Shown one piece after another: positions 15,945 to 60,207 of a stretch of 64,000 nt of DNA. Under the pieces are notes generated by a model. The model saw only the letters and a list, made by a program, of their open reading frames with translations, was not told the DNA's origin and searched no databases. A program made the position numbers and the translations under genes. This DNA comes from Ancylobacter polymorphus. GTDB lineage: Bacteria; Pseudomonadota; Alphaproteobacteria; Rhizobiales; Xanthobacteraceae. Within the stretch, counting starts at the first letter, position 1. Each line of letters starts with the position of its first letter. The stretch covers positions 186,001 to 250,000 of the forward strand of contig NZ_JAUSUI010000006.1 in assembly GCF_030813495.1 (NCBI RefSeq). Reading direction: 5' to 3'.

Positions 15945-16033
15945 TCGTCATCCCGGACGGCCGACAGGCCGATCCGGGATCGCGTGCCGTCAGCGGATGG
16001 CGCCCCCGGCTCTCGCTTCGCTCGGCCGGGATG
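15945..16033. repeat. REP-like palindrome pair (CATCCCGG family)
   Basis: The first unit (15945-15983) has outer arms CATCCCGG and CCGGGATC around an inner GGCC-GACA-GGCC stem. The second (16004-16033) has GGCTCTCGCTTCGCTCGGCC inside CCGG/CCGGGATG arms. It is related to 40066-40160, 41195-41223 and 60061-60148. It sits between convergent genes. Confidence 0.75.
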
Positions 16034-49685: not shown

Positions 49686-49766
49686 GTGCTGATCTCCTGA
49701 AGGCCCTGCCATTCACAGGCTCGGGCGAGCGCGGGCTTTTACGCGATAAGGCGAAGCGAGGCAACG

Positions 49767-49798
49767 GGTGCGAGCGCAGCGAGCCTCGAAGGATGGTC
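49767..49798 (+). repeat. Palindromic repeat, family 2 (copy A), downstream of the GIY-YIG gene
   Basis: A truncated copy (missing the CGTCATCCTGA end) whose AGGATGGTC edge is 14 bases from the GIY-YIG stop codon. It is inverted relative to copy B at 50121-50163. Confidence 0.8.
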
Positions 49799-49812
49799 GC
49801 ACAAGCGCGTCA

Positions 49813-50106
49813 CTATTTGCGCAGAGACGGCCGCCGCGCGGCCCCTCGCACCGTCTCCCAGTCGCCACGGATGAGGGCTTCTTTCTTGAGCCGGCTCCAC
49901 CCCTTGACCTGCCGTTCGGCGGCGATGGCATCGGTGATGCGCTCGAACGCTTCCGACCAGACCAGCCTTACCGGCCGCCGCCGAAACGTGTAGCCGGGAT
50001 AGCTGCCACTCTGGTGTTCGGCAAGGCGCTTTTCCAATGCGCCGCTAGTCGAGCCGACATAGAGCGAACCGTCGGCGCAGCGAAGCATGTATACGACCGC
50101 ACCCAT
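49813..50106 (-). CDS. GIY-YIG nuclease family protein, framed by inverted repeats
   Basis: 97 residues, a stand-alone GIY-YIG domain: VVYMLRCADGSLYVGST with the catalytic Tyr pair (the canonical GIY-YIG reads VYM-YVG here), an Arg in LEKRLAEHQSG, and Glu in AIAAERQVKGW. Small proteins of this YhbQ/UPF0213-like type are multiplied in some Rhizobiales; activity is largely uncharacterised. Start ATG 50106 with GGGAGAAG upstream. The gene is bounded on each side, 14 bp from its stop and 14 bp from its start, by inverted copies of the same palindromic repeat. Confidence 0.85.
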   Translation of the reverse strand: MGAVVYMLRCADGSLYVGSTSGALEKRLAEHQSGSYPGYTFRRRPVRLVWSEAFERITDAIAAERQVKGWSRLKKEALIRGDWETVRGAARRPSLRK

Positions 50107-50120
50107 CTTCTCTCCCGGAT

Positions 50121-50163
50121 GACCATCCTTCGAGGCTCGCTGCGCTCGCACCTCAGGATGACG
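50121..50163 (-). repeat. Palindromic repeat, family 2 (copy B), upstream of the GIY-YIG gene
   Basis: Full 43-bp copy. On the minus strand it reads CGTCATCCTGAGG, core, then CCTCGAAGGATGGTC. Arms CATCCT/AGGATG and GAGG/CCTC can pair. 14 bp from the GIY-YIG start codon. Confidence 0.85.
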
Positions 50164-50197
50164 TTGTGCCGGGGGAAGGCAAGGGGCGTGGACGAGC

Positions 50198-50235
50198 CTC
50201 CTTCGAGGTCCGGCGATGCCGGGCACCTCCGGATG
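50198..50235 (-). repeat. Degenerate copy of the family 2 repeat
   Basis: CTCCTTCGAGG ... CACCTCCGGATG keeps the outer arms. The core is replaced by a true hairpin CCGGCGATGCCGG. Confidence 0.55.
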
Positions 50236-50281
50236 CCGGCGCGTTGGTGGATGACGACGTGATGAACTCCTTAAGGAACCA

Positions 50282-50324
50282 CGTCATCCTGAGGTGCGAG
50301 CGCAGCGAGCCTCGAAGGATGGTC
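50282..50324 (+). repeat. Palindromic repeat, family 2 (copy C)
   Basis: Full 43-bp copy identical in sequence to copy B, in opposite orientation and 118 bp away. It lies 27 bp before the rhodanese stop. Confidence 0.85.
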
Positions 50325-60060: not shown

Positions 60061-60148
60061 GTCATCCCGGCCGAGCGCAGCGAGAGCCGGGATCGTTTCC
60101 CGATCGTCGCGCGATCCCGGATACGGCCTGCGGCCGTTCGGGATGACG
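60061..60148. repeat. REP-like palindrome pair upstream of purH
   Basis: Unit 1 (60061-60094): CATCCCGG / CCGGGATC arms around a GAGCGCAGCGAG core. Unit 2: GATCCCGG and GGGATGACG arms around ACGGCCTGCGGCCGT. Opposite outer arms make a BIME-like pair. Confidence 0.75.
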
Positions 60149-60167
60149 CCGCGCCGTTTTCGCGCGC

Positions 60168-60207
60168 CGTCATCCTGAGGTGCGAGCGCAGCGAGCCTCG
60201 AAGGATG
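60168..60207 (+). repeat. Palindromic repeat, family 2 (copy E)
   Basis: Reads CGTCATCCTGAGG, then the same core as the 50121 and 50282 copies, then CCTCGAAGGATG. About 90 bp before the purH start. Confidence 0.85.

Follow-up and report, generated by a model that had tools for sequence, protein, structure and literature searches.

The window analysed here, a stretch of 64,000 nucleotides from Ancylobacter polymorphus, carries between asd and a rhodanese gene (both named by reading of their translations) a small gene for a GIY-YIG nuclease, with a copy of a dispersed REP on either side [Table 1]. The encoded protein contains a single GIY-YIG domain (60.1 bits with PF01541, against a curated cut-off of 22.6), and its only clear relatives of solved structure are 1zg2 and 1ywl, both UPF0213 proteins. 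Nearly identical named genes are found in A. vacuolatus (97%), A. dichloromethanicus (85%) and A. aquaticus (84%). Ancylobacter genes of this type, hereafter A genes, are under purifying selection, with a median dN/dS of 0.178 over 62 of 66 pairs, the frameshifted L025 included.

The original prediction, that inverted REPs frame the gene, was confirmed: positions 49767-49798 and 50121-50152 form a 32-nt inverted match that is 100% complementary and ends 14 bp from the stop of the gene on one side and 14 bp from its start on the other. The further copies that it had reported, namely copy C, a degenerate copy and copy E, were all found. Its description of the frame as symmetrical and palindromic held for the inverted arrangement of the copies but not for their form, the left copy being shortened at its outer end (it is whole at the same site in G018) and the repeat being a bulged, CGTC-tagged hairpin rather than a clean palindrome. 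Chance is excluded as the source of this framing, because the A-type pattern has 18 copies in the window's 4.7-Mb genome and related genes elsewhere are framed alike.

Table 1 Features of the nuclease locus and related repeats in the window
Feature	Position	Strand	Remarks
Small GIY-YIG nuclease gene, group A	49813..50106	-	97 aa plus stop
Copy A, downstream REP, truncated, without the outer CGTCATCCTGA end	49765..49795	+	Intact at the same site in L035
Copy B, upstream REP, complete	50124..50163	-	CGTC tag pointing away from the gene
12 bp on the gene side of copy A	49796..49807	.	Matches the G011 dimer spacer (24 bp) in its right half
12 bp on the gene side of copy B	50112..50123	.	Matches the G011 dimer spacer (24 bp) in its left half
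Degenerate REP, CCCGGC inner-stem type	50197..50235	-	
Copy C, complete REP	50282..50321	+	
Copy E, complete REP	60168..60207	+	Adjoins a dimer of another REP type

REPs of a second type, termed D below, also occur in the window. An inverted D-type dimer (35 and 36 bp) lies at 60061-60147, 20 bp from the A-type copy E, and the two REP types thus stand together at 60061-60207 though no D-type nuclease was matched in the window's genome; a lone D-type REP is located at 15947-15982.

A bulged hairpin related to the CGTC REPs

The A-type repeat begins CGTCATCCTGAGG and finishes CCTCGAAGGATGG, with a variable middle that is mostly CGAGCGCAGCGAG-like or CCCGGC-loop-GCCGGG-like, and folds into a bulged hairpin, one end of which bears the tag CGTC. 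Pairing of the inner arms holds for CCCGGC-like variants and is poor for those of the CGAG type. Over 52 variants, 0.81 of inner-stem positions were paired, compared to 0.65 with shuffled partners; by type, the values were 0.99 versus 0.935 shuffled (CCCGGC-like) and 0.60 versus 0.56 shuffled (CGAG). The variants thus lend partial compensatory support to the inner stem. Counts of the A-type pattern ranged from 0 (in 10 of 30 Ancylobacter genomes) up to 413 per genome, and the reversed control pattern had no match in these 30 genomes.

The survey by Di Nocera 2013 (PMC3733652) describes CGTC REPs as repeats abundant in alphaproteobacteria and forming inverted dimers, whose mark is a tag reading CGTC (or TGTC/CCTC) and, adjoining it, a stem that starts with AT, is 8-9 bp long and closes on a loop of 4-5 nt, other loop lengths occurring in some species. 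The window repeat resembles them in its CGTC tag, AT stem, inverted dimers and alphaproteobacterial abundance, and the A type departs from them in its longer, bulged stem and variable inner part. The tag does stand beside an AT-starting stem: copies B, C and E of the window read CGTCAT and relatives read CGTCAT or CCTCAT, the window stem itself reading CATCCT, with AT in second place after the C of the tag CGTC. A stem of 8-9 bp with a loop of 4-5 nt is not what the A type has, being bulged, with a longer stem plus an inner part, and both stem and loop exceed the lengths given in the survey; the B and E types introduced below have, by eye, a plain stem and a short loop. According to the same survey (PMC3733652), no tyrosine transposase gene flanked by CGTC repeats was found and these repeats were left without a transposase, while for GTAG REPs mobilisation by a RAYT or IS200/IS605 transposase was proposed.

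The latter proposal could be extended to the present repeats, with a RAYT or IS200/IS605 transposase moving them in trans and the GIY-YIG gene a mere passenger. The Y1 transposase profile PF01797, however, matched nothing at E 0.001 in any of the 30 Ancylobacter genomes, whereas the same search matched 5 of 14 control genomes, E. coli included; together with the reported lack of a CGTC-flanked tyrosine transposase gene, this makes such a transposase acting in trans very improbable. A RAYT in trans was rejected for this genus on the PF01797 result.

Framing of small GIY-YIG genes in the genus and beyond

A PF01541 profile search was run on the 30 Ancylobacter genomes, and each of the 21 small GIY-YIG genes that were scored in the genus had an inverted flank score in the range 27-104, scores of at least 26 being reached by 2.6% of 4346 shifted control intervals. 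Left out of this scoring were L006, which lacks flank where its contig ends, and L022, excluded for its long frame. Fifteen more places in the genus, judged by eye, were all framed except for four, namely the decayed L205, where no repeat is visible, L204, which has framing on one side, the broken L206 and L207, truncated by the end of its contig. Clustering by protein identity alone (at 65% or 70%) divided 38 genes of the genus into five groups plus the decayed L205, and most of these groups have a palindrome of their own, as judged by eye: that of the window in group A (14 genes), TCATSCCCGGGCTTGACCCGGGSAYCCA in group B (7 genes), one with TTCCCGGACGCC and GGCGAGCCGGGACCCAGC in group C (4 genes), one like CGTCATCCCGGCCGAAGCGCAGCGAAGAGCCGGGATCG in group D (4 genes) and TCATGGCCGGGCTTGTCCCGGCCATCCACG in group E (8 genes). 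Protein groups and repeat types do not pair without exception, since it is the B pattern that surrounds three group E genes (L020, L023 and L199).

Two arrangements within the genus may be recorded here. A B-type gene with the same neighbours is found in one orientation in L002, L016 and L017 and, in one species, in the opposite one in L021. At L040 (G005), a REP and start-proximal sequence are tandemly repeated upstream of the gene, with three REPs in one orientation (by eye).

The search was extended to the phylum, where 249 genomes were searched and, among the matches listed, 30 loci plus 100 chosen places (mostly short frames, some other listed places being left out) were taken; this sample represents the best-scoring places and is not a random draw. 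Together with the genus loci, 162 loci were available, 153 of them with a modelled gene, 152 with a small one and 150 scored. Among the matches listed, inverted flank scores of at least 30 were found for 59 of the 150 small GIY-YIG genes and of at least 40 for 51, compared to 1.1% and 0.6%, respectively, of the 4346 shifted controls.

Framing is unevenly distributed over the family. A tree was built from the phylum genes except L165, which was too short (128 of 129 genes; 98 columns; numerous forks unresolved), and genes were labelled on it as framed when their flank score, in either orientation, was at least 40. One side of 48 genes contains 35 framed ones (branch support 100/98), the window's type has 7 framed out of 13 (91/83), and a group of 67 that includes the YhbQ-like proteins has none (87/93), such that framing amounts to 42/61 in the first two groups and 0/67 in the third. 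The label required 16 changes on the tree, versus 35.5 for shuffled labels. The original prediction had counted it against itself if other GIY-YIG genes lacked the flanks: some indeed do, most of them belonging to this one separate group, of which all 67 are bare. Hairpins with the tag outward on both sides were likewise found in 21/47 genes of the GTLYIGVT class, 0/56 of the YhbQ-like class and 1/650 control intervals, in a scan that needs an 8-bp stem and is therefore blind to the A-type repeat (0/16 in that class), and that placed L149 in the wrong class. Against these figures has to be set the possibility that repeat-rich intergenic space simply lends its repeats to small genes, REPs being mainly intergenic according to Di Nocera 2013 (PMC3733652). 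The rates in the two sets of controls and the wholly bare YhbQ-containing group argue against such coincidence, to which we assign next to no credence. Chance framing was rejected on the two control rates.

Named relatives of the A protein provided a further set of 41 loci, 39 of which were examined and 35 scored, four being at contig ends. Inverted scores of at least 26 were found in 20/35, three of these in the window's genus and several barely above 26; direct scores only were obtained in 3/35 and no framing in 12/35, with 4.7% of 895 controls for comparison. Eight stretches of named plasmid-collection records were also read. Framing exceeded all of the record's own controls in Azospirillum lipoferum, Novosphingobium aromaticivorans pNL2, Methylobacterium bullatum and a Sphingobium plasmid. 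The scores of Neisseria gonorrhoeae (45) and Sinorhizobium meliloti (42) stayed below the best of their controls (51 and 45, respectively), with repeats visible by eye in both; Aeromonas caviae scored 20 against 22, repeats being seen on both sides by eye only; and no framing repeats were seen in the Rhizobium tumorigenes record. The tags nearest to the gene point toward it in the Neisseria and Azospirillum records (by eye). The B-type Ancylobacter protein is 56.8% identical to a N. gonorrhoeae protein, the window's type belonging to another tree group, and had no match at E 1e-5 in 50,697 phage records.

On the A. lipoferum plasmid AZO_p3 (L251), the REP-framed GIY-YIG gene lies between sufB and sufC. 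Seven loci (L132, L133, L149, L153, L160, L175 and L188) have inverted flank scores of 63-143, several with a CGTCAT tag, which suggests a group with longer framing repeats.

Repeat numbers, gene-less dimers and sites

The A, B and E repeats were counted with exact patterns in the 30 Ancylobacter genomes and compared with the presence of the matching gene group, groups being set by protein identity alone and p-values ignoring kinship among the genomes. A repeats had a median of 35.5 in the 12 genomes with an A gene versus 0 in the 18 without (p=9.5e-5); the corresponding medians were 45 (7 genomes) versus 3 (23 genomes) for B repeats (p=9.8e-4) and 6 (7 genomes) versus 0 (23 genomes) for E repeats (p=2.2e-4). 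The six mismatched pairings of repeat and group yielded p-values of 0.018, 0.4, 0.11, 0.15, 0.11 and 0.4. Eight genomes have no small GIY-YIG gene, and their totals of A, B and E repeats were 0, 0, 0, 0, 0, 0, 1 and 55. The genome with 55 copies, G016, has two REPs and no gene at a site where its relatives have the gene with REPs (L039), which is consistent with past loss of the gene.

Repeats as frequent in genomes without the gene, another outcome that the original prediction had held to be adverse, were not the rule: they are rarer there, with exceptions. Many A repeats are present without an A gene in G025 (179), G015 (30), G013 (20) and G016 (17), and B repeats without a B-group gene in G011 (59), G024 (39), G016 (38), G023 (36), G026 (27), G007 (27), G025 (24) and G020 (18). 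For the E type, G021 (10), G011 (7) and G018 (6) have copies without the gene; in G007, where the gene is present, just 3 copies were counted. In the phylum, after leaving out the six genomes that had supplied the gene model, a gene hit was obtained in 9/19 genomes with at least five dRS3-type repeats versus 43/224 others (p=0.0078), the remaining 10/19 having no gene hit.

REP dimers without a gene were searched for in ten genomes. Tail-in dimers numbered 90 in G011, 107 in G024 and 103 in G021, and tag-in dimers 167 in G021 and 80 in G025. In G011, the 24-bp dimer spacer has the consensus CTCGTCCGGGTGCGCTGTAGCGAC (41 spacers of exactly 24 bp, 60 listed). At the window locus (L001) and at L013 and L010, the 12 bp that adjoin each REP on its gene side agree with the spacer's two halves, left and right, at about 22 bits, shuffled flanks averaging -28 to -35 with a standard deviation of about 10 (for the window gene, 22.3 bits versus -34.5, sd 9.8). 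The match is weaker for L011 (9.3); for L195 and L012, the upstream flank, the sole one examined, matches, and that of L005 does not. In L001, L013 and L010, the element thus has the mark by which MITEs are known, non-autonomous copies sharing their ends with the coding element. Because the sequence beside the gene matches the spacer halves of gene-less dimers, gene unit and dimers look like the full and reduced forms of one element; the gene would therefore sit where the middle of the dimer spacer would be.

Twelve A loci fall into seven neighbourhoods (within about 1.5 kb), five loci being at the asd/rhodanese site and two at another. Eleven loci were examined at the asd/rhodanese site, eight of them with both neighbours in view: the gene with REPs was present in 4/8, REPs only in 1/8 (L039), neither in 2/8 (L041 and L042) and other sequence in 1/8 (L034). 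For the empty-site comparison called for by the original prediction, no clean pair of empty and filled sites was found. On Sphingobium plasmids, 7/11 records spanning the gap between fnrL and a regulator gene cover the gene unit (four of these were read) and 4/11 do not; of the latter, all of which were read, two have one palindrome tagged at both ends and two have other sequence. The two with one palindrome resemble, by eye, a deletion between 8-bp direct repeats inside two REPs. Neither the asd site nor Sphingobium showed a clean insertion with a target-site duplication, and the search yielded no usable empty site in S. meliloti.

At the asd/rhodanese site of G013, a close relative, L034 holds unrelated sequence resembling small genes (by eye). 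The D-type nuclease unit L022 (G026), from another species, adjoins the same neighbour gene, ispG by reading, as the window's A-type unit, which hints at a hot spot for different nuclease groups.

A homing reading, with the nuclease cutting inside REP dimers, the gene being copied in and the REPs spread by something else, would account for a gene lying within an apparent 24-bp dimer spacer and for the REPs found without a gene at one site in G016. We nevertheless deem it distinctly unlikely, considering that A genes number one or two per genome against 90-107 tail-in dimers, that no Y1 transposase (the sole class searched) was found as another mobiliser, and that repeat types track protein groups.

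A nuclease and its repeats as proposed parts of one element

The layout had been likened to RAYTs and their REPs with a GIY-YIG enzyme in place of the transposase, and the anatomy supports this likeness well: most genes in two protein groups are framed, repeat types are associated with protein groups and, within one genus, repeat numbers track the matching group. RAYT/REP systems (REPtrons, REPINs) likewise have an enzyme gene framed by scattered hairpin repeats, as well as gene-less dimers; theirs, however, is an HUH tyrosine transposase with a GTAG tag, as opposed to the GIY-YIG nuclease and CGTC tag seen here. GIY-YIG homing endonucleases of the I-TevI type have the catalytic domain and the selfish gene in common with the present system, but no intron or intein was seen and no separate DNA-binding domain was found here, and the gene is framed by its own repeats.

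That protein and repeat are paired is, in our judgement, nearly certain, and we consider it probable, drawing partly on what is reported of the Ssn nucleases, that the nuclease acts on the repeat. That its action spreads the repeats we hold to have slightly better than an even chance, and we lean by about as much toward regarding gene and repeat as two parts of one selfish element. The unit would consist of two CGTC-tagged hairpins, tags mostly outward, framing a small GIY-YIG nuclease, and the commoner dimers (REP, about 24 bp, inverted REP) would be its gene-less derivatives. In single-stranded DNA, the nuclease would recognise the hairpin that its own type of REP forms and cut it at the tag or close by; REPs would then spread as the cut DNA is repaired or copied, the whole unit doing so less often, and different nuclease groups would serve different REP types. 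Hairpin cleavage by the protein may be presumed from what is reported of a Neisseria relative; that cutting drives copying, and by which route, we infer.

GIY-YIG nucleases of the Ssn family, described in Nature Communications in 2025 as site-specific single-strand nucleases, reportedly cut homologue-specific repeats, those of a Neisseria relative among them, and the enzyme is reported to act as a nuclease and modulator of transformation; the gonococcal gene is presumably the Ssn gene. That family too reportedly has a small GIY-YIG protein with cognate repeats, and the Neisseria relative of the B-type protein adjoins CGTC repeats; by analogy, the window protein may cleave its repeat in the same manner. 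The REP-dimer, gene-unit and copy-number evidence presented here is not known to be part of that work. Alternatively, nuclease and repeats could serve the cell by restricting incoming single-stranded DNA or steering it, which is what is reported for the Neisseria Ssn nuclease in natural transformation; the repeats would then be retained or tolerated, and any spread a by-product. The CGTC repeats near the gonococcal relative and the purifying selection on the A gene are in line with such a function. Yet the patchy presence of the A gene (12 of the 30 genomes), its differing sites, the resemblance of the spacer in gene-less dimers to the ends of the gene unit and the large differences in copy number together look like a mobile element; we view the cellular function as unlikely, if by no means negligible, and continue with the reading of gene and repeats as one selfish element.

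The suggestion that the system might be undescribed was only partly right, given that Di Nocera 2013 describes CGTC REPs which the repeats fit and that the Ssn nucleases reportedly cut repeats in Neisseria. Cutting of homologue-specific repeats by GIY-YIG relatives is reportedly already in print; new, as far as we know, would be the connection of such nucleases with CGTC REPs in a mobile-element system, the anatomy of the reduced dimers and the per-group match in copy number. Judged by titles and the starts of abstracts, none of the matches listed in a literature search linked GIY-YIG nucleases with palindromic repeats, and a word search of later papers on REPs, Coxiella, Bradyrhizobium and HUH enzymes returned no mention of GIY-YIG.

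CGTC hairpin repeats are abundant in many alphaproteobacteria and present in Neisseria, and the 2013 survey left them without a dedicated transposase. The pairing described here names candidate enzymes for repeat types. We give about even odds to a wider reading, in which the mobilisers that the CGTC-REP superfamily as a whole has been lacking would be small GIY-YIG nucleases; they would define a class of bacterial mobile element whose one-domain hydrolytic nuclease, its gene lying between two tagged hairpins, spreads gene-less hairpin dimers over the genome while enzyme and hairpin diversify in step. We know of no strand-transfer activity in GIY-YIG enzymes, and should the nuclease indeed spread the repeats, it would represent a form of mobility based on an enzyme of this kind and would help explain the large differences in repeat number between related species.
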